Shown here one piece after another: positions 4,340 through 57,055 of a DNA stretch of 64,000 bases. The notes beneath the pieces were generated by a model that searched no databases, was not told the DNA's origin, and worked only from the letters and a program-made list of their open reading frames with translations. This DNA comes from Chrysoperla carnea. Taxonomy: Eukaryota > Arthropoda > Insecta > Neuroptera > Chrysopidae. The translations under genes and the position numbers were made by a program. Position 1 is the first letter of the stretch. The number at the start of each line of letters is the position of its first letter. The stretch lies in the NCBI RefSeq assembly GCF_905475395.1, contig NC_058339.1:93072520-93136519 (forward strand). Reading direction: 5' to 3'.

Positions 4340-7300
4340 TCACGTAGCTTTTGGTCGAAATGCAAACGGATCATCTGGATTCGCTGCAGCTTGGGTTGCA
4401 TTTAAACATCTGTAAACATACGCACTGATTGATAAGTCGTCATCAGTTCGACCACATGTGAAATTTTCTGGGCAGGAACAACGTCTGTAAAGAAGAAATT
4501 AAATTGATTTATTATAAAATACTAAGAAATGCAAGTGCAAGGCACTACTCCAAGCCTACGCCACTGGCCCTCTCGCCAACCGACTACCATTTTTTCAAGT
4601 ACTGTGATTACTTTGTCACCGATAAAACCTTCGGCAATCAAGACCAGGTACAAACGGCCTTCGTCGACTTTATTGGATCACGTGCACCCAATTTTCATGC
4701 CGACAGAATTAATCGATTTGCGTAACGTTGGCAAAAGAGCATTGATTCAAATGACCCTTATTTCGATTAACCCTTATTTCGATTAAATGACCTAAAAAGT
4801 AAATAATAAAATTACCAAAATATACTTACGAATTCGTCATAAAATAGTCAATAGTTTTTGTAATCGAAGTATATACGGCCCATCCGCAAGGTGTTTGATT
4901 TTTACAAATCCGTTTCTGTTCACCAAGATCCGAATTCTTTTCAGCGATTGCTCTCTGTAAACAAAAAAAATTAAAAACTTATTAAATAATATACATCTGC
5001 GTAATGCGTAGATAAAGTTTTTTTTGGGGTCATTTAATTCTATTGATTGATTTATTATATTTTTATCATAAAAACATAAAAAAGGCGGGAAAAAAACCAA
5101 ATAGTTGAGTGACGCACATGAGATCACATGACCTAATGACGTTAATTCTATTTCAAATATAAAATAAAATGCGTTTGAGTTTTTTTTTTTTTAAATTCAG
5201 TTGAATAACCCACAAAGGTTTCTTTCCATAATGGATACAAAATGAATAAATTAATAATTAATAATAGTAATAAATAAATTGTTAATTAATGTTTACAAAA
5301 CAATTTAATAATTTTCTTGTCAACAAATAAATAATTTATATAAAATAGTTGGTAAAATATATTTAAAAAAAAGTCTGTTTTGTAAAGTTACACCACGTGT
5401 TTAAGAAAAAAAAAAATTGTAAACTACGACTAGAGAAGAGGATTACGATAACAAGCGTCATCTTGAGCGTCTGGTCTGTTAGCTGAAGCTAAATGTTGAT
5501 GTGATTAATTATAATGACTTAGCAATGCTGTTTGTCCGTCAGTCTGTCTGACTGTGCGGTGTCCATGCCATGCTGCTGCAAGTCATGCTTGATCGGCCCA
5601 GACAAAATAATACATAAATAATGACATCACACCATCTAAAGATGTTTTGTTGTTTGTCTATTTACACGTTAACGTTTAAGATTGAAATCTGTTTAAGTTG
5701 CATAAGCCATACTTGTAACAAATTTGGGCGATTAGTTCTCTCTAATAATTTGTTTATGAATAATAATAGTAAAACAAAAGAGGGGTACCGCAAGTGGGTC
5801 CCCAGCATCTAGACCAAGAGTCGCTATTAAAGTCGGATGAAGCTAAAGGATTCTATCGAGGCAAGACGCCAGACAGACTGCCCACAGCTTCTTCGTCGAG
5901 ATTTCTCCCAGGATAGATGGATTCAAGGTTTTGGACCCGAACATTCTGAATCTAACGCCCTGCAGATTTCTGGACGTCAGGCAGAATGCCCACAGCTGCT
6001 CCATCGGGATTTCTGCCAGGATAGATGGATCCAAGGTTTCGCAACCGAACATTCTGAATCTAACGCCCTGCAGATTTCTGCAGGTGCAAATAACATGTAT
6101 AGAGGTTTCGTCGTACTCAATATAGGCTCTACAAGTGGGATAATTAGAGAAGCCCATGTAATGAAGGTGATAGTTCAATCGACGTGTCCTGTAAGGAGTC
6201 CCACCATCCTTCTCAACTATGCTCTAGTAAGTTGCAGACGAGCACAGTCGAATGGCCTAGTTGTGGTTATACACAGTTTGGCCTGTCGCATGGCCTGGGC
6301 AAAGCCTCATTCATCAAGATTGGCTTGTCGTAGCCATTCTTTGATTCGGCAAATTACAGAGCATTTGGCTATGGGAATGATAGGCTCAGGTGAAAGGGGC
6401 GTTTGAGACGAACCCTCTCTTGCAAACGAGTCTGCTGTTTCATTTCCTTTAACGCCAAAGTGATCTCGAACCCAGATAAGCCCAACTTTGTTGTTTTGTT
6501 TGTGATTACTATTTATATTTTCCTACTGAAAAGCACAGTCGAATGACCTGGCTGTGGTTATACACAGTTTAGCCTGTCCCATGGCCTGGACAAAGCCTCT
6601 TTCATCAAGATTGGCTTGTCGTAGCCATTCTTTGATTCGATGAATTACAGAGCATCTGGCTATGGGAATGACAGACTCAGGTGAAAGGAGAGTTTGAGAC
6701 GAACCCTTTCGTGCCAACGAGTCTGCTGTTTCATTCCCTTTAACGCCAGAGTGACCCGGAACCCAGACTTTGTTGTTACTATTTATATTTTAGTACTAAA
6801 GATATTCGAAATTTACAAACTTTTAAAATTGTTTATTTTTGCGCTAAATTAGTAGAAGCAAAAAGTTTCAATTTTTGAATGAATTTCGTACGATCTCGAT
6901 TCTAAGAGATGAAGATAATTAAGCACCAATTAATAGAAATAATGGTCTCATGATGATGAGTTTGAATTTGTTAGCGTGTAAGCGTATAAAGGTTTTTTTT
7001 TTTGTATCTAAATACGCATAACGTGTGTGTACGTGTGTAACGCAGTGTGTGTCATGTCTAACATGATGCGTTGACGTATTTGTCGTATCTAATTTTAGTG
7101 GACATAAAGAATGATGTAAAACTTTTTTCTTTTTGTCTTTGAGTAAGAAACGTAAGTGTAAGTAGACAAAGAGGATGCTATTCTAATTCCGTGTTATAAG
7201 ATTATCCTTTTCTATTTACATGCACACTAAAATAGCAAAAATAACAAACTAAATTATTGCAGACCTCTCTAGACATAACATAATTGATATTTGCAATCTT

Positions 7301-47816: not shown

Positions 47817-48234
47817 ACCTATCATTAATATTGTACACGTAATGATCATACGATTCATTTTTGATATCTACACACACACACACATTTTTTTACGCATTTT
47901 AATTCATCCTGAACAATTCTTACAATTTCATTTCATTATTATTATTTATTACATCCGGTCGGTCTATCCATCCATCTGTCTGTCTGTCTATTACAATCAT
48001 CGTTATTTACTTTCTTTATCAATTCAACTGTTCATTTATTTGAATTTTTTGTGTTAATTCAGCCACACAAAGTCTATATACAGAGGTTATTTAGTTGACT
48101 TCTAAGTTTAATTATGAAGTGATTATTTTTTAAGAGGAAGAGATTCTAAGAAAAATGTTCCTTCTAATATCATTAACAAAATACGAGGTTCTTAAATTAC
48201 TTATCGGTCGTTATTTTGAAGATGTAACTTGATA

Positions 48235-48530
48235 TGACGCTTGACGGTGGCTTTGAGCGTCAAATTAGGAATCCACTTAGCTGAAAAAAATAGAACTATG
48301 TGCAGCGTCAAATTTAAAAGATGTTTGACGCTCATGATGACGCTTGACGCTGCCTTTGAGCGACAAATTAGTAATCCACCTGGCTGGAAAAAATAGAACT
48401 ATGTGCAGCGTCAAATTTAAAAGATGTAACTTCATGATGACGCTTGACGCTGGCTTTGAGCGTCAAATTAGAAATCCACCTAGCTGAAAAAAATAGAACT
48501 ATGAACAGCGTCAAATTGTAAAAAAGAGCG
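48235..48530. repeat. three-copy about 100-bp tandem repeat, GCGTCAA-rich
   Basis: Units begin TGACGCTTGACG at 48235, 48338 and 48438. Each holds CTTTGAGCGWCAAATTAG, an AATCCACYTRGCTG block, AATAGAACTATG and CAGCGTCAAATT. A single inverted relative lies at 58967-59097. It sits directly downstream of gene A's 3' end. Confidence 0.85.
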
Positions 48531-48649: not shown

Positions 48650-49951
48650 TCACGTTAAAGACACCATTAAAGGCAATTCAAACGAGTTTTCCTTTTTTAT
48701 GATTTGCCCGTTATCATTTTCCGTTAATAAATGTTTTTTCTTATGTTTCTTTAAACTACTCGAATCATAAAATCCTTTACAACAGATCGAACACAAGTAT
48801 GGTGTTTCCCCCGTATGGGTACGCACATGTACCGTTAAATTACTCTTTAACGAAAATTGTTTTTCACAAATATTACATTGATGTGGTTTGTCCCCACTGT
48901 GGGTGCGCGTATGCACTTTTAAATGATGATGTTGTCGAAAACTTTGCTCACAAATCTCACATTTATATGGTTTACCCCCCGTGTGAATTAATTCATGGGA
49001 CGTGCATGTAGTCCGATGTGTAAATTGTTTTTCACAAAACGAACATTTATAACGTTTCTCACCGGAGTGCGTTAGTTGATGTGTACTTAGCGCAGCACTT
49101 TGTGAAAATGATTTTTCACATAGTTTACACTTATAAGGTCGTGCGCCGGTGTGAACATTTATATGCACTTGTAAAGCTGCACGTTGTGCAAAACCTTTAC
49201 CACAAATACTACATAAAAACGGTCGTTCGCGATTCGATAATTTCGCACCGTCTTCATTCGGATACATTTCATGAGCCCGAATATGTTCTTTCAAAGCGTA
49301 TTTTCGTGTAAAACTACGATCACAAAGATTACAAGCGTATGGTTTTTCACCGGAATGACTTCGTAAATGTCGTTTATAATTCGAACTGAGTGAAAATTCT
49401 TTGAGACATGTTTCACATTTGTACGGTTTTTCATTCGTATGAGATCGCATGTGTTCATATAATTTCGTTACACTTTGGTTACATATTTTACACATTCGCT
49501 TTTTCCTTACAATTTTTTTCTTTGTTTTAATAACTTTTTCCTTTTCATCTTCTTCGAAATTATTCGACAATTCGATATCCTCGTTCGCTATAAAATACTT
49601 TTCTTCGTGAATGCTCTCGAAATCGTCTTTCGTATCCAAATTATTTAAATACTCTTCAAATTTTTTTCGAGTTTCTTGACATTGCTGTTTAAAATTGTAC
49701 GCTGAATATAATTTATCCAAACAATTTGTGCAAATATTTTGTGGATAATTATCATTTTCGATTACCTGTAAAAAAAGAAAACAAAGCTTTGAAGTAAGGA
49801 CTTTAAGTAAAAGTGTATTTTAAATATTTATTACCGTAATATCAACAATTTCTGTTAACATTTCAATTATATTAAACGAAAAATTATCGAATAATGACTG
49901 TAATTCGCCATCCGAAGAACATGTTCGACAAATTGTTTCAAAATTATACAT
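48650..49951 (-). CDS. gene A: ZAD-type C2H2 zinc-finger protein, nine fingers
   Basis: Exon 1 is 49951-49835 (39 codons, ends ACG|GTAATA). The intron is 69 bases. Exon 2 is 49765-48650 (371 codons plus stop, starts after TTTACAG). The protein has about 410 residues. The ZAD spans both exons: CRTC at residues 8-11, CTNC at 51-54, with MYNFETICRTCSSDGEL at the start. An acidic stretch and a basic KTKKKIVRKKR (possible nuclear signal) follow. Nine C2H2 fingers run from about residue 131 to 384 with TGEKP-like linkers. The first finger is short (C-x2-C-x9-H-x3-H). ZAD proteins are insect transcription or chromatin factors whose ZAD dimerises; the target here is unknown. Closest local relative is gene C (shared finger series and 3' flank). 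The ATG is supported by the matching first exons of the four genes. Confidence 0.9.
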
Positions 49952-50030
49952 AATTTCGAGTTTTTGCAAGAATTTTTGACAACAATTCTAACCTTTTAAT
50001 ATCTACTGTCAAACTTTTAAAAATACAGTT

Positions 50031-50072
50031 AACACCGGACTTAGTGGCGAAGTTCTTTCGAAAATTTACCAC
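50031..50072 (-). promoter_or_regulatory. conserved upstream block of gene A
   Basis: AACACCGGACTTAGTGGCG followed by AAGTTCTTT is found about 80 bases upstream of the ATG. Near-identical blocks lie at the same distance before genes B and C. Between block and ATG, a TTTGACAG...GGTTAGAATTGTTGTCAA stretch is also shared with gene B. Likely core promoter or 5' UTR. Confidence 0.5.
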
Positions 50073-50473
50073 GTTTTAGCGTTTGTACTATTCGATTTTA
50101 ATACTTACGAACCATCTAGTGGTAGATAAGAGAACTGAGTTGTCAACTCTCATAGAACAAAAGGTTTAACGGAAATGTGTTTATTTGTGGATTATTATTG
50201 ACTATTAAAAACTAAAATGGATATTGGTTAGATATTGAATTACATCAAACTAATAAATAATAATTTTAAATATGTTAATAATAAAATGAATGCTGTTAGA
50301 AGACAATTAAATATAAATGTCATGTTCAGTAGAGTTGCCTATCTATGTAATAAACTTGGTGGGTGGGTTAACCATGCTTAGAGGGCGGGTTAATCATAGT
50401 ATAGGTATATAGAATTGGAGTTGCAGGTTACTTAAGGTATTAAAAATAAAAATTACATAAAATTATTTAGTTT
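50073..50473. other. spacer between genes A and B
   Basis: AT-rich, 400 bases, with a GGTGGGTTAACCATGCTTAG patch near 50361. Nothing coding was seen. Confidence 0.45.
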
Positions 50474-50479
50474 TTTATT
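50474..50479 (-). terminator. poly(A) signal overlapping the stop codon of gene B
   Basis: The stop region reads GAATAAAAA on the minus strand, so AATAAA overlaps the TAA stop. If it is used, the 3' UTR would be only about 20 bases. Other AT-rich alternatives downstream cannot be excluded. Confidence 0.4.
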
Positions 50480-51886
50480 CAACTTTCGGAATTTTTAAGG
50501 ATGCATTCGATTGATTTGTTGATTCCTCATTTTGTCGCTCATTTTCTGTTAATAAATGATTCTCTTTACGTTTATTTAAACTAGGTGACTCCCTTCGAAC
50601 AGATGGTACACTTGTATGACCTTTCTCTGTGTGAATACGCTCATGTACAGTTAAATTCCCCTTCAATGCAAAATTTTTATCACAATATTGACATTTAAAT
50701 GGTTTTTCGCCCGTGTGGGTGCGTAAATGAGCGATTAAATGATGTCGTTGGCGAAAACTCTGCATACAAAACTGACATTCGTATGGTTTCTCCCCCGTGT
50801 GAATTAATTCATGACTTTTCCACGTGCTACGATGTAAAAATTCTCGTTCGCAAAACGAACATTTATATTGTTTCTCCCCGGTGTGATTCTTTTCATGACT
50901 CAAACAATGCGATCGAACTCGAAATTGTTTCTCACAAAAGGAACATTTAAAACGTTTTTCATCGGTGTGACTCGTTTCGTGAACCCGTAATGAAGCACTG
51001 TATGCAAATGTTTTCTCACAAACAGCGCACTTGTAAGGCTTTTCACCGGTGTGTACGACCCTGTGCGTAACCAATCCCTGACGATTTGCGAAACTTTTCC
51101 CACAAAAGCTACACAAAAATAGTTCATTTTCTTCTTCATTCGTAGCAGTAACTAAACCCGCCTCTCTTGGTTTGTATTCTGTAGGTGTTCGAGGTTTCCG
51201 TTGCTCACCCAGACATCGATGCGTTTGTAAAGTGTGCTTACGCGTAAATCTTCGCTGACAGATGTCACAACCAAATCGTTTTTCACCTCCATGAATCCGT
51301 AAATGTCGTCTATAGTTTGAGATAAACGAGAATCGTTTATCACAAGTTTCACATTTGTACGGTTTTTCTTTTGTATGTTTTCGCATGTGTTCAAATAATT
51401 TTGTAACACCTTGATTACATATTTTACACATTCGTTTTTTCTTTACAACTTTTTTCTTTGTTTTAATAACTTTTTCTTTTTCATCCTCTTCGTAATTATT
51501 CGAGAAGTCGATATCTTCTTTTACAATAAAATACTTTTCTTCGTGAATGCTATCGAAATTATCTTTAGTATCCAAATTATTTAAATACTCTTCAAACTTT
51601 TTTCGAGTTTCTTGACATTGCTGTTTAAAATTGTACGCTGAATATAATTTATCCAAACAATTTGTGCAAATATTTTGTGGATAATTATCATTTTCGATTA
51701 CCTGTAAAAAAAGAAACAAAGTTTTGAAGTAAGGACTTTAAGTAAAAGTGTATTTTAAGTGTTTATTACTGTAATATCAACAATTTCCGTTAACATTTCA
51801 ATTATATTAAACGGATAATTATCGAATAATGAGTGTAGATCATCATCCGAAGAACATGTTCGACAAATTGTTTCAAAATTAAACAT
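50475..51886 (-). CDS. gene B: ZAD-type C2H2 zinc-finger protein, mosaic, last finger lost
   Basis: Exon 1 is 51886-51770 (39 codons). The intron is 68 bases. Exon 2 is 51701-50475 (408 codons plus stop). The protein has about 447 residues. The ZAD (CRTC 8-11, CTNC 51-54) and linker up to the first short finger are almost the same as in gene A, including the KTKKK basic run. From HMRKHTKEKPYKC onward the protein follows gene D: CDICQRRF finger, HRCLGEQRKPRTPTEYKPR spacer, then AVCEKTFAYS and further fingers. Nine finger units are present. The third lacks a normal final His (reads H-R-C). Where gene D has a tenth finger (YKCTIC...HEKKH), gene B reads EKGHTSVPSVRRESPSLNKR: a 1-base and an 8-base deletion shift and restore the frame. 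Head-to-head with gene C. Confidence 0.9.
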
Positions 51887-51977
51887 TATTTCAACTTTTT
51901 AAAATAATTTTTATGTTTTTTGACAACAATTCTAACCTTATTTTTCAATATCTACTGTCAAACAAAATATATAGTTA

Positions 51978-52018
51978 ACACCGGGCTTACTGGCGAAGTT
52001 CTTTCCAAAATTATCACA
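51978..52018 (-). promoter_or_regulatory. conserved upstream block of gene B
   Basis: AACACCGGGCTTACTGGCG plus AAGTTCTTT lies about 92 bases before the ATG and is the counterpart of the blocks before genes A and C. Confidence 0.5.
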
Positions 52019-52294
52019 TTTTTGTGTTTGTGGCATAGATAATAAAATAATAGTAGAGATGGACTATATAGTATTAAAAATGTTAAGAAATGTTATTATT
52101 ACAAGATTTCACACTCAACGAAACCATTTTTTAATAATAACGTAAATATGTAAATTTACTTGAGATGTTCACTGGTCAGTGGTTGATTGTATACTAATAT
52201 TCAGTGAAAATATTCATCGTCTTTTGTCGTCTTCACGGAAACATATACTTGTTGGCTATGCTCCATCTGTACTATTACAACATCTTTGGTGTTT

Positions 52295-52335
52295 GTGGTA
52301 ACTTTAAAAAGAACTTCGCCACTAAGTTCGGTGTT
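52295..52335 (+). promoter_or_regulatory. conserved upstream block of gene C
   Basis: GAACTTCGCCACTAAGTTCG followed by GTGTTAAC lies about 89 bases before the ATG. It reads as the reverse complement of the gene A block when both are written on the plus strand, so orientation relative to the genes differs in presentation only. A bidirectional promoter in the 537-base B-C spacer is possible. Confidence 0.5.
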
Positions 52336-52423
52336 AACTTTAACTGCATTTTTAAAAGTTTGACATTACATTGATTAAAATTATTATCGAAAAATTTAAA
52401 AATTATTTTAAAAAGTCGAAATA

Positions 52424-53638
52424 ATGTATAATTTTGAAACAACTTGTCGAACATGTTCTTCGGATGGCGAATTACACTCAATATTCAATAACTATCCGTT
52501 TAATATAATTGAAATGTTAATAGAAATTGTTGATATTACGGTAATAAACACTCAAAGTCACTTTTATTTAAAGTCCTTACTTCAAAACTTTGTTTTTTTT
52601 TTACAGGTATTCGAAAATGATAATTATCCACAAAATATTTGCACAAATTGTTTGGATAAATTATATTCAGCGTACAATTTTAAACAGCAATGTCAAGAAA
52701 CTCGAAAAAAATTTGAAGAGTATTTAAATAATTTAGAAATTAAAGACGAATTCGATAGCAATCACGAACAAAAGTATTTTATTGTGAACGAGGATATCGA
52801 ATTGTCGAATAATTTCGATGAAGTTAAAAAGGAAAAAGTTGCTGTGAAAGAGGAGTTGGAATTGTCAAATAATTTCGTAGAAGATAAAAAGGAAAAAGTT
52901 ATTAAACGGAAAAGGAAAAAAGTCGTAAGAAAAAAACAAATGTGTAAAATATGTAACCAAAGTGTGACAAAATTATTTGAACACATGCGATCTCATACGA
53001 ATGAAAAACCGTACAAGTGTGAAACATGCTTTAAAGAATTTTCATTATGTTCGAATTATAATCGACATTTACGAAGTCATTCAGGTGAAAAACGATTTGC
53101 TTGTCATCTTTGTGATCGTAGATATACACAAAGTCATTCTTTAAAAGAACATGTTCGAACTCATGAATTGGATCCAAACTGCTCGAAAGACGATTCGAAA
53201 TTATCGAATCGTGTAAGACCGCCAAGCCAACCGCTCTTATGTAGTATTTGTGGTAAATGTTTTACACATCGGGCAGCTTTCAATGTGCATCAAAATGTTC
53301 ACACCGGTGCACGACCTCATAAATGTAAAATTTGTGAAAAATCATTTTCACAAAGTGCTGCGCTAAGTACACATCAACTAACGCACTCCGGTGAAAAACG
53401 TTATAAATGTTCGTTTTGTGAAAAACAATTTGCTGTGAAGTGTTCGTTAACGATACATGTGCGTACCCATACGGGGGAGAAACCATTTATTTGTTCAATC
53501 TGTTGTAAAGGATTTTATGATTCGAGTAATTTGAAGAGACATAAGAAAAAACATTTATTAACGGAAAATGATGGACAAATCATAAAAAAGGAAAACACGC
53601 TTGAATTGCCTTTAAAGGTATCTTTAAGTGAAAAGTGA
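52424..53638 (+). CDS. gene C: ZAD-type C2H2 zinc-finger protein, seven fingers
   Basis: Exon 1 is 52424-52540. The intron is 52541-52606 (66 bases, GTAATA...TTTACAG). Exon 2 is 52607-53638. The spliced protein has about 382 residues. The intron is a multiple of three with no stop, so an unspliced mRNA would add 22 residues inside the ZAD; splicing is preferred because the other three genes share these sites. ZAD cysteines are as in gene A. The linker has a duplicated ELSNNF-acidic unit and a KRKRKKVVRKK basic run. Seven fingers follow, the first short. Compared with gene A, two fingers are missing: YKCSFCEKQF of A's finger 6 is joined to the second half of finger 8, at the shared CEKQF word. 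Promoter block, exon 1 and 3' flank resemble gene A. Confidence 0.9.
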   Translation: MYNFETTCRTCSSDGELHSIFNNYPFNIIEMLIEIVDITVINTQSHFYLKSLLQNFVFFLQVFENDNYPQNICTNCLDKLYSAYNFKQQCQETRKKFEEYLNNLEIKDEFDSNHEQKYFIVNEDIELSNNFDEVKKEKVAVKEELELSNNFVEDKKEKVIKRKRKKVVRKKQMCKICNQSVTKLFEHMRSHTNEKPYKCETCFKEFSLCSNYNRHLRSHSGEKRFACHLCDRRYTQSHSLKEHVRTHELDPNCSKDDSKLSNRVRPPSQPLLCSICGKCFTHRAAFNVHQNVHTGARPHKCKICEKSFSQSAALSTHQLTHSGEKRYKCSFCEKQFAVKCSLTIHVRTHTGEKPFICSICCKGFYDSSNLKRHKKKHLLTENDGQIIKKENTLELPLKVSLSEK

Positions 53639-53678
53639 TTTTTTTTTTAAAATAAAAATTATGATTTTGTTTTGAAAA

Positions 53679-53684
53679 AATAAA
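53679..53684 (+). terminator. poly(A) signal of gene C
   Basis: AATAAA about 40 bases after the stop, in a flank homologous to that of gene A (both continue with TTTATTTTAAAAT and, later, CCATTTTTAAGGTT). Confidence 0.6.
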
Positions 53685-53810
53685 GTTTATTTTAAAATGA
53701 GAACGATTTTTATTTATTATCCATTTTTAAGGTTTTGATAAAAGTGAGAGTGCGATCTCATTGTTCCTCTCACTCTATCCCATATAAAATACATAGAAGT
53801 ATCTCACTTG

Positions 53811-54274
53811 TGCTCCATACCACAAGTCATAGTAAAATACTATGACTTGTGCTCCACTTCACAAGTCATAGTAAAATACTATGACTTGTGCTCCACTCCA
53901 CAAGTCATAGTAAAATACTATGACTTGTGCTCCACTCCACAAGTCATAGTAAAATACTATGACTTATGCTCCATACCACAAGTCATAGTAAAATACTATG
54001 ACTTGTGCTCCACTTCAAAAGTCATAGTAAAATACTATGACTTGTGCACCACTTCACAAGTCATAGTAAAATACTATGACTTGTGCTCCATACCACAAGT
54101 CATAGTAAAATACTATGACTTGTGCTCCACTTCACAAGTCATAGTAAAATACTATGACTAGTGCTCCATACCACAAGTCATAGTAAAATACTATGACTTG
54201 TGCTCCACTCCACAAGTCATAGTAAAATACTATGACTTGTGCTCCACTCCACAAGTCATAGTAAAATACCATGA
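53811..54274. repeat. 39-bp minisatellite of perfect hairpins, 12 copies
   Basis: Each unit holds CAAGTCATAGTA, AAA, then TACTATGACTTG, an exact 12-bp inverted repeat with a 3-base loop, and a 12-base spacer (TGCTCCACTTCA or close variants). Twelve AAAATACTATGAC-type units can be counted. Variation is mostly in the spacer. Because 39 is a multiple of three, one frame stays open over most of the array (units read as VIVKYYDLCSTPQ), broken by a TAG in unit 9. I do not regard it as a gene. Confidence 0.95.
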
Positions 54275-54464
54275 AGCATATAGGCAAGAGAACGATCGCT
54301 ATAGAAAGTATTGTCCCCGAAATAAGGATAAAATAAGTGAGGCGCTGCGATCAATACGTAGTATCAATAAAAGCGGGCTGTTGTGCGCTAATTTCAAATG
54401 ATATATCAATTTGTACATTATGCTAACAACAACAGCTAACTTCACAGATACTACTTCTTGATGA

Positions 54465-54565
54465 CAGCGCGGCTGGTGGCTTAAAAATGAACTATAAATG
54501 CTACAAATTTTTAGGGACAGGTACGCTAATGCTTTAGTACATAGCGATCTTTCTCCTGTTCTATA
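54465..54565 (+). repeat. inverted repeat left of gene D
   Basis: GGCTGGTGGCTTAAAAATGA, then ACTATAAATGCTACAAATTT, AGGGACAGG and GCTAATGCTTTAG...AGCGATC match 56960-57053 in reverse orientation over about 95 bases. The pair brackets gene D. Possibly copies of a small mobile element. Confidence 0.7.
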
Positions 54566-54637
54566 ACCTTCATGATACAGATGTACAATTTTACCATTTT
54601 AAACGTTACGCTAGTTTTCTATCCCATGTGAACGTAG

Positions 54638-54650
54638 CTTTATATATAAG
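54638..54650 (+). promoter_or_regulatory. TATA-like sequence before gene D
   Basis: TTTATATATAAGG lies about 100 bases before the ATG. Gene D lacks the AACACCGG block found before A, B and C but keeps a diverged TTTTGACAG...GGTTAGAAATATTGTCAA stretch. A TATA-dependent start is an inference. Confidence 0.35.
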
Positions 54651-54743
54651 GTTAAGTTATCAATGTTTTGACAGCAAATTCTTTTACAGGAAAGGTTAGA
54701 AATATTGTCAATAAATCAAAATTGAATCCCAAGTGTAATAATA

Positions 54744-56769
54744 ATGTTCGAATTTGATAAAATTTGTCGAACTTGTTCGTCTTCAGACGGTGAATTACAT
54801 CCACTGTTTGATAATTTTCAATTTAATGTAACTGAAATGTTAACGGACATTGTTAATATCAGGGTAAGAGACTTTGATTTTTTTTCATATAGCCTAAAAT
54901 ATACACCCCAATAGCCAGAGCAAAAAAAGTAGGTTCATAATACAATTAACTACAGAGTTTTTTTTCTTGTTGGAGTGTGTTGAGAGGTATCCCCTGAATG
55001 TAAACCCAAGTTGATTGGACGCGGGAAGGTGTCGAGATTTAGTCACCATCTTAGAAAACAGGTTTTTATCGACAATTTCGTGAACAATGCATCGTACGAA
55101 AAAAATAGTAGGGGCATATTGTACAAAGTTTTGAACGCTATAAATAAAAATCTATGCAATAAACAGAAAAAAGTTTCAAATAAAAGTTATAGAAAATGTT
55201 TTTATCTACAAAAATGATCCCTACTAAAATGATCCCTAAAACTTGTTTTCCAAGATGGCGGATGAAGCTCGAGCCTTGAAAAAACAAGCCTCTTTTTGTA
55301 ACTGTATTATTTTATTTACGTTTCGAATTTGTTTCTAAACTTAGGTATTCGAAAATGATAATTATCCACAAAATATTTGCATAAATTGTTTGGATAAATT
55401 ATATTCAGCGTACAATTTCAAACAACAATGTCAAGAAACTCGAAAAAAGTTTGAAGAGTATTTAAATAATTTGGATACTAAAGATAATTTCGATAGCATT
55501 CACGAAGAAAAGTATTTTATTGTAAAAGAGGATAACGAATTGTCGAATTTCGTAGAAGTTAAACAGGAAAAAGTTTTTGCGAACGAGGATATCGAATCGT
55601 CGAATAATTACGAAAAAAATGAATTTCTGATTGATAACAGCTACGAAGAAGGAATAGAAAATGAATCATCGAATTACTGCAAAGACGAACCAAAAGAAGG
55701 TGATAATTCCAGCGAAGAAAATTATTTCAAAGAAGTCGAATATGAAGAATCATCGAATCACAGCGAAGACGAATCAAAAATAAGCATCAAAAAAATACGA
55801 AACAAAAATGTACCGCGAAGTGGAACTTGTGAAATCTGTAACCAAACTGTAACGAAATTATACGAACACATGCGAAAACATACGAAAGAAAAACCGTACA
55901 AATGCGAAACTTGTGACAAACGATTTTCGTTGAGTTCAAACTATAGTCGACATTTACGGATTCATCGCGGTGAAAAACGTTTTGGTTGTGACATCTGTCA
56001 GCGCAGTTTTACGCAAAAGCATACTTTACGAGCGCATCGATGTCTGGGTGAGCAACGGAAACCTCGAACACCTACAGAATACAAACCGAGAGGGACGGGT
56101 TTAGTTACTGTTACGAATGAAGAAGGAAAAAAACGATTTTTATGTAGCTTTTGTGGGAAAAGTTTCGCACATCGTCAAGGATTGGTTACGCACAGGGTCG
56201 TGCACACCGGCGAGAGACCTTATAAATGTGCTGTTTGTGAGAAAACGTTTGCATACAGTGCTACATTACGGGTTCACGAACTGACTCACACCGATGAAAA
56301 ACCTTTTAAATGTTCTTTTTGTGAGAAAATGTTTAAAGTTCGATCGCATTGTTTGAGTCATGAAAAAAGTCACACCGGAGAGAAACAATATAAATGTTCG
56401 TTTTGCGAACGAGAATTTATACATCGTAGCACGTGGAAAAGTCATGAATTAATTCACACGGGAGAGAAACCATACGAATGTCAGTTTTGTATGCAGAGAT
56501 TTCGTCAACAACAACAATTAACCAGCCATTTACGCACTCACACGGGCGATAAACCATTTAAATGTCAATATTGTGATCAACATTTTGCGCTGAGGGGTAA
56601 TTTAACTGTACATGAGCGTATTCACACGGGAGAAAAACCATACAAGTGTACGATCTGTTCGGAAGGATTTTACGAGTCACGTAGTTTAAAGAAACATGAA
56701 AAAAAACATTTGTTAACTGAAGAAGTTCGACAAAATGAGGAATCATCGAATCAATCGAATGCATCTTAA
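54744..56769 (+). CDS. gene D: ZAD-type C2H2 zinc-finger protein, ten fingers
   Basis: Exon 1 is 54744-54863 (40 codons, ends AGG|GTAAGA). The intron is 54864-55344 (481 bases, with an inserted foldback element). Exon 2 is 55345-56769 (474 codons plus stop). The protein has about 514 residues. Exon 1 is the most diverged of the four (MFEFDKICRTCSSSDGEL, one extra Ser), yet the start of exon 2 is almost identical to the others. The linker is longer and strongly acidic (ESSNYCKDEPKEGDNSSEE region) than in A-C. Ten fingers follow: the first short (TCEICNQTVTKLYEHMRKH), the third with H-R-C instead of His at the end, then a HRCLGEQRKPRTPTEYKPR spacer and seven standard fingers. It is the intact counterpart of gene B's finger array. 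Flanked by inverted repeats. Confidence 0.9.
55044..55260. mobile_element. small inverted-repeat element in the intron of gene D
   Basis: The left arm CACCATCTTAGAAAACAGG (55044 on) and the right arm AACTTGTTTTCCAAGATGGC (to 55260) are imperfect 23-base reverse complements about 217 bases apart. Its insertion explains much of why this intron is 481 bases while the others are 66-69. Confidence 0.6.
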
Positions 56770-56835: not shown

Positions 56836-56954
56836 TTAATTTAAAAACGTTTCTTAATTTTTTTATGACTTCCTCAGACACGTATAAAAATAAATAAAGT
56901 TATTTTAAACAATTTAACCTAATTTTATGTTTTAATTATTATAAACCATGGAGG

Positions 56955-57055
56955 TTAGAGAGAAGGAGAACGATCGCTACGCGCTAAAGCATTAGCGCGT
57001 CCGTCCCTGAAAATTTGTAGAATTTATAGTTCATTTTTCAGCCACCAGCCATAGT
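56955..57055 (-). repeat. inverted repeat right of gene D
   Basis: Reverse-orientation match to 54465-54565. It contains the palindrome ACGCGCTAA-AGCA-TTAGCGCGT (56979-57000). Confidence 0.7.

Follow-up and report, generated by a model that had tools for sequence, protein, structure and literature searches.

The tandem array between two zinc-finger genes in this DNA is very probably one copy of a palindromic minisatellite that is dispersed through the genome and is carried, in part, as cargo of non-autonomous transposons of the P superfamily; the copy seen here would most likely be a truncated composite of array and transposon. "The window" denotes the whole 64,000-nucleotide stretch analyzed (C3:93072520-93136519), and the genome searched comprised 559 Mb.

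Structure and setting of the array

The array and its neighbors in the window are as follows:

52424..53638, + strand, gene C, a zf-AD plus C2H2 zinc-finger protein of 404 aa (Pfam zf-AD match)
53722..53798, + strand, fragment of a dispersed repeat left of the array, parts of which match 12 other places at 76-93%
53806..54269, + strand, minisatellite array of 39-base units, 11 full hairpins plus a 12th cut at GTAAAATAC
54270..54574, + strand, 305-bp putative P-type MITE (CATGAAG...CTTCATG), abutting the last hairpin at its loop (GTAAAATAC followed directly by CATGAAG)
54575..54672, + strand, 98-bp segment following the MITE, otherwise seen at near full length only next to a MITE of the C2:82.73M composite (97%)
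54744..56769, + strand, gene D, a C2H2 zinc-finger paralogue with predicted exon ends
56947..57050, - strand, older fragment of the 3' end of the 305-bp MITE, just after gene D (86% over 104 bp)

The original prediction placed the array between two paralogues of the same direction, just after gene C, and this is borne out: two C2H2 zinc-finger genes flank it, and 167 bp separate the end of gene C from the array start. Gene D was assigned because it resembles gene C; its first exon (about 54744-54866, the second starting near 55390, exon ends again predicted) gave no Pfam match when searched alone. Four C2H2 zinc-finger paralogues cluster at window positions 48650-56769, two per strand, with a Pfam zf-AD match in two of the four as delimited here. 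Further tandem arrays lie at 48219-48523 (period 103, three copies) and 6241-6767 (period 291, 1.8 copies).

The 39-base unit consists of a 14-bp arm, an AAA loop, a second 14-bp arm and an 8-base spacer. Since the common arms are 14 bp long (CACAAGTCATAGTA-AAA-TACTATGACTTGTG), the 12-base spacer originally proposed shrinks to 8 bases. Tandem Repeats Finder reports a period of 39 and 12.0 copies with 93% matches over 53806-54274. The 12th unit, however, ends after GTAAAATAC at its loop and the MITE starts at 54270; the array therefore ends at 54269, and 54270-54274 is MITE sequence. An array of twelve units at 53811-54274 had been proposed; the period and the reality of the array stand, but only 11 units are full, the 12th being cut by the MITE, and the bounds become 53806-54269. 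A perfect 12-bp hairpin was claimed for every unit and is present in 8 of the 12 (an exact 27-mer palindrome with 8 occurrences), while three units have a single mismatch in the arms and the last unit is cut. In 100 dinucleotide-preserving shuffles the expected count of the hairpin 27-mer is 0.00. As RNA, the window array folds at -226 kcal/mol vs -80 in 100 shuffles (z = -26.6).

The 305-bp MITE and its link to the P superfamily

Window positions 54270-54574 match 305-bp copies elsewhere, a first look having scored 40 of 920 candidates. The 5' 35-mer of the MITE occurs at 175 genome places with up to 3 mismatches. Among 34 full copies extracted, 20 are flanked by an exact 8-bp target duplication. 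The other 14 include 10 that abut an array, two (L022 and L032) that are left ends of longer elements with their own duplication, one (L033) nested in a MITE, and one (L037) whose 8-mer pair has one mismatch. The MITEs not beside arrays look young: 22 of 24 lie within 1% of their consensus, one departs by 1.3% and one, of another subfamily, by 8.2%.

By matching the lists of MITE 5' and 3' ends, a 5.75-kb element was found at C3:2500904-2506653 and its sequence was read at both ends. Over its first 140 bases it agrees with the MITE at 136, over its last 94 at 93, and it is flanked by an exact 8-bp duplication, ATACAAAC. A match to the P-superfamily transposase PF21787 at C3:2503973-2504395 (E = 6.9e-27) falls inside this element by coordinates, and may instead mark a P element nested within it. 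With its 8-bp duplications and with ends common to a transposase-spanning element, the 305-bp element appears from its sequence to be a P-superfamily MITE. The genome has 65 P-type transposase matches. These matches and the zf-AD gene cluster in the window suit an insect genome, zf-AD being linked to insects. A link through three other transposase loci that were read (L080-L082) was ruled out; the MITE ends are not common to them.

Four more long elements have MITE ends and exact duplications: ATAGATAG (C3:75.75M), ATGTACAC (C4:2.68M), GTCAGTAC (C4:3.24M) and TTGTCATT (C1:127.86M). Longer DNA between such ends has therefore moved in this genome. The elements at C4:2681239-2685771 and C4:3243389-3248316 (L022, L032, L095, L096) share identical sequence just inside the left MITE, and are perhaps further cargo moved by MITE ends.

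Dispersal of the unit

The unit 27-mer was found in the genome, at up to 3 mismatches, at 1471 forward and 1483 reverse places; a perfect unit is counted on both strands because it is nearly its own reverse complement. These approximately 1,500 places per strand rule out a unique array. Array edges, in a one-pattern search, were found on all six large contigs. Of the loci that hold at least two units, 24 were read, the window included, and at least two additional array loci, C5:17.75M and C5:69.68M, were present among the matches listed. L073, with one unit at most, was left out of the 24. Five stretches with single half-unit matches (L062, L063, L064, L066 and L068) lack the unit sequence. 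Scattering of units through the genome, which the original prediction took as counting against its proposal, is largely what was found, in the form of dispersed arrays, partly with transposons; a single satellite block is ruled out. An assembly artefact, the other objection it raised, is unlikely, many loci having their own unit order and flanks.

The spacer CTCCACTGCA, which gives longer arms, is found in many arrays with no MITE seen, and MITE-linked arrays have mostly CTCCACTCCA and CTCCATACCA. This split is a tendency only: L052, L070 and L074 have no MITE seen, yet mostly CTCCACTCCA. Whole-array identity did not single out one donor array for the window, the best value being 0.968 (C3:92.69M) and those of other MITE-linked arrays 0.955-0.966.

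Composites of arrays and MITEs

Arrays joined to MITEs were seen at 8 of the 24 loci read; these loci were picked partly via MITE junctions, so the fraction is not a genome-wide rate. Locus counts are lower bounds. At four of the eight, one exact outer 8-bp duplication surrounds MITE and array:

C1:54.70M, outer duplication ACTATGAG, 63 units
C1:79.20M, outer duplication AAGGATAC, 40 units
C2:82.73M, outer duplication CTGTAGAT, about 160 units
C5:13.98M, outer duplication GTGTAAGC, higher-order repeat of arrays and ~124-bp MITE pieces

This is the organization of a composite transposon, with one duplication outside both MITE copies, the left copy at C5:13.98M being a remnant of the last 3-4 bases only. 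Because the single duplication encloses both MITE and array, the two moved together. The remaining four MITE-linked loci (the window, C3:92.69M, C4:2.95M and C2:7.03M) have a one-sided MITE and no outer duplication. Joins between MITE and array at the loop GTAAAATAC were found at 13 exact places in the order array-then-MITE and at 5 in the order MITE-then-array, in searches for those joins only. A common G is present in 7 of 10 array-linked MITEs vs 1 of 24 others, and many of the array-linked MITEs therefore look like one lineage.

The following route would account for this anatomy. An array would have come to lie between two 305-bp MITEs, each joined to it at a hairpin loop (GTAAAATAC), and a P-type transposase, presumably acting on the outer MITE ends, would have moved MITE, array and MITE as one composite. 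Such a move would leave a single 8-bp duplication around the whole, as the anatomy at the four loci shows. To judge from the order of units, tandem recombination would afterwards have shrunk or expanded the arrays and formed higher-order repeats. From the window composite the left MITE would be gone, and perhaps some of the array as well. The youth and homogenization of the arrays would explain why hairpins persist. Several findings speak against this route. The window and three other MITE-linked loci have a one-sided MITE and no outer duplication. A join at the loop, moreover, requires either that 9 bp be duplicated or that two insertions be offset from each other, and the MITE family makes 8 bp.

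The minisatellite could also be an ordinary dispersed one that spreads alone, for example by extrachromosomal circles reinserted through short homology, with MITEs landing in it. No MITE was seen at 16 of the 24 loci as far as they were read (both edges in 10, one in 4, none in 2), and MITEs are therefore not the sole way of spread; the array edges at or near the loop (TAAAATA) in L049, L052, L056, L059 and L061 also fit spread of this kind. The single 8-bp duplication around MITE and array at four loci and the nearly private base of array-linked MITEs argue the other way. Independent spread is on balance unlikely, and it is compatible with carriage by MITEs. At L052 an empty site derived from a tandem host repeat was unusable, since other copies of the repeat differ at that point.

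Origin of the unit

A foldback-like element may have been the source of the unit. In 25 places, spread over six large contigs, the unit comes after GGAAGTAAACTACTG with at most one mismatch, and at C1:62.92M this boundary marks the end of one arm of a long inverted repeat; the other arm likewise enters unit sequence. The array had originally been suggested to be a product of foldback amplification. This may be half right, given the fixed boundary of the unit, which at one locus closes a long inverted repeat. A stronger version, in which the unit arose in such an element and is still spread by it, P-type MITEs being a later and minor vehicle, is quite possible if somewhat on the doubtful side; it too is compatible with carriage by MITEs. 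Against it, outer ends and a target duplication of the C1:62.92M element were not found, the GGAAGTAAACTACTG boundary occurs at none of the MITE-linked array edges read, and the right edge of the window array is left unexplained. More palindromic repeats, of the ACGGTATACCGT and ACCGTGTGCGGTATA types, lie beside hairpin units at L069 (C4:2029400-2031200), L073, L088 and L089.

History of the window copy

A left MITE and matching flanks around 53806-54574 were looked for and none was found. With one MITE only and no outer duplication, the history of this copy has to be read from its relatives, and the sequence comparison indicates that it is most likely a truncated composite that came to lie between two zinc-finger genes.

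The 98-bp segment that follows the MITE ties this locus to one of the composites. Elsewhere it is represented by one ~50-bp piece at 86% on C1. At C2:82.73M a 22-base stretch with CTTCATG at its end comes next, and then the outer duplication; in the window it continues past GTTTTGAC toward gene D. On one reading of these flanks, the C2:82.73M composite would have been born at the window locus, carrying off 98 bp of host DNA. The reverse direction, from C2:82.73M to the window, may also apply to this flank, because likeness to the DNA upstream of the paralogues begins only near 54691.

The hairpin loop as a possible landing place

The composites could also owe their origin to the array itself. 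The unit loop would then be a preferred landing place of the P-type transposase, so that an array gathers MITEs in register, pairs of them become composites, and the minisatellite recruits its own vehicle and is spread by it. The MITE target duplications show a GT start or an AC end in 13 of 20 cases vs 9.6% of 20,000 random window 8-mers, with the full GTnnnnAC in 3 of the 20. The Drosophila melanogaster P element target motif is given as GTCCGGAC (PMC3276498), and the Galileo target as palindromic and stem-loop-prone with a GTATTAC core (PMC4168063). The loop GTAAAATAC has both the GT and the AC ends, in a length of 9 bases. The idea is retained because it agrees with these ends and with the palindromic targets published for P and Galileo. 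Under the 20-position target matrix of the MITE family, however, the loop is not the best site in the unit and spacer sites rank best, and recruitment of this kind is rather improbable. The MITEs on the two sides of an array could have arrived in one event or two.

Relation to known systems

MITEs carrying tandem repeats are already known (reviewed in PMC9659126). The P-MITEs of Anopheles gambiae resemble the 305-bp family in being short and non-autonomous, with P-element ends, exact 8-bp duplications and longer P-type relatives; palindromic minisatellite cargo is not described in the accessible part of that paper (PMC1562414). Galileo is a foldback-like member of the P superfamily with a palindromic target motif able to form a stem-loop, and tandem repeats can expand within it. 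Its repeats, however, lie inside its own inverted repeats, whereas here the array stands between separate MITEs in direct orientation and every unit is built as a hairpin (PMC4168063). Tetris, the foldback element of Drosophila virilis that seeded a satellite, likewise carries tandem repeats that also form longer free arrays, but these are ~220-bp repeats in long inverted repeats, the suggested superfamily is Mutator, and Tetris is not a P-type composite (PMC4079207). The lepidopteran (GTCY)n repeats and miDNA4 and Xstir of Xenopus likewise link tandem repeats to non-autonomous DNA transposons, which carry them or from which they grew. There the repeat is in, or derives from, one MITE, unlike the present case, in which MITEs bracket a repeat that exists elsewhere too (PMC9659126). 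In a search largely confined to papers outside subscription, no title among the matches listed named a minisatellite bracketed by two P-type MITEs.

This single assembly appears to capture an intermediate between a dispersed transposon and a satellite: a minisatellite of palindromic units that P-type MITEs bracket and that has moved with them in one piece, its arrays occurring side by side in short, long and higher-order forms. How short tandem repeats enter gene-rich places thereby becomes a testable question at named loci.

Variation and the fold

Variation was assessed in nine stretches linked to MITEs; of their 449 units, 13 that were inverted or lay at junctions were left out, giving 436. 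Departure from the consensus unit averages 1.5% for the arms, against 8.1% for the spacer. The expected concentration of variation in the spacer, with arms mostly intact, is thus present, but is due mostly to three positions with inherited variants; without these, spacer departure in the same 436 units falls to 2.3%. Of the two causes originally offered for this pattern, homogenization gains support from common spacer variants, higher-order repeats and inverted units. Constraint on the fold does not: none of 248 changed arm pairs is compensated (0/154 in the 436 MITE-linked units, 0/94 in 228 units of other arrays), a test low in power, as 1.2 pairs changed on both sides would be expected by chance in 436 units, and none was seen. 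An earlier count that kept junction units gave 214 changed pairs.

Selection on the fold is accordingly not supported. The roles first suggested for the array in the gene cluster and at the 3' ends of transcripts gain no support here. The hairpin might function at such 3' ends, in small RNA or chromatin, or in recombination within the zinc-finger cluster; the very strong fold (z = -26.6) and the end of gene C only 167 bp before the array would suit such a role. The uncompensated arm pairs, low in power as that test is, the small gap between arms and non-variant spacer positions (1.5% vs 2.3%) and the presence of similar arrays at many other loci make it highly improbable. Perfect 12-bp hairpins were found in 337 of 436 MITE-linked units and 152 of 228 other units. 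Inverted units occur within otherwise uniform arrays at L057 (C5:13981500-13985300) and L079.
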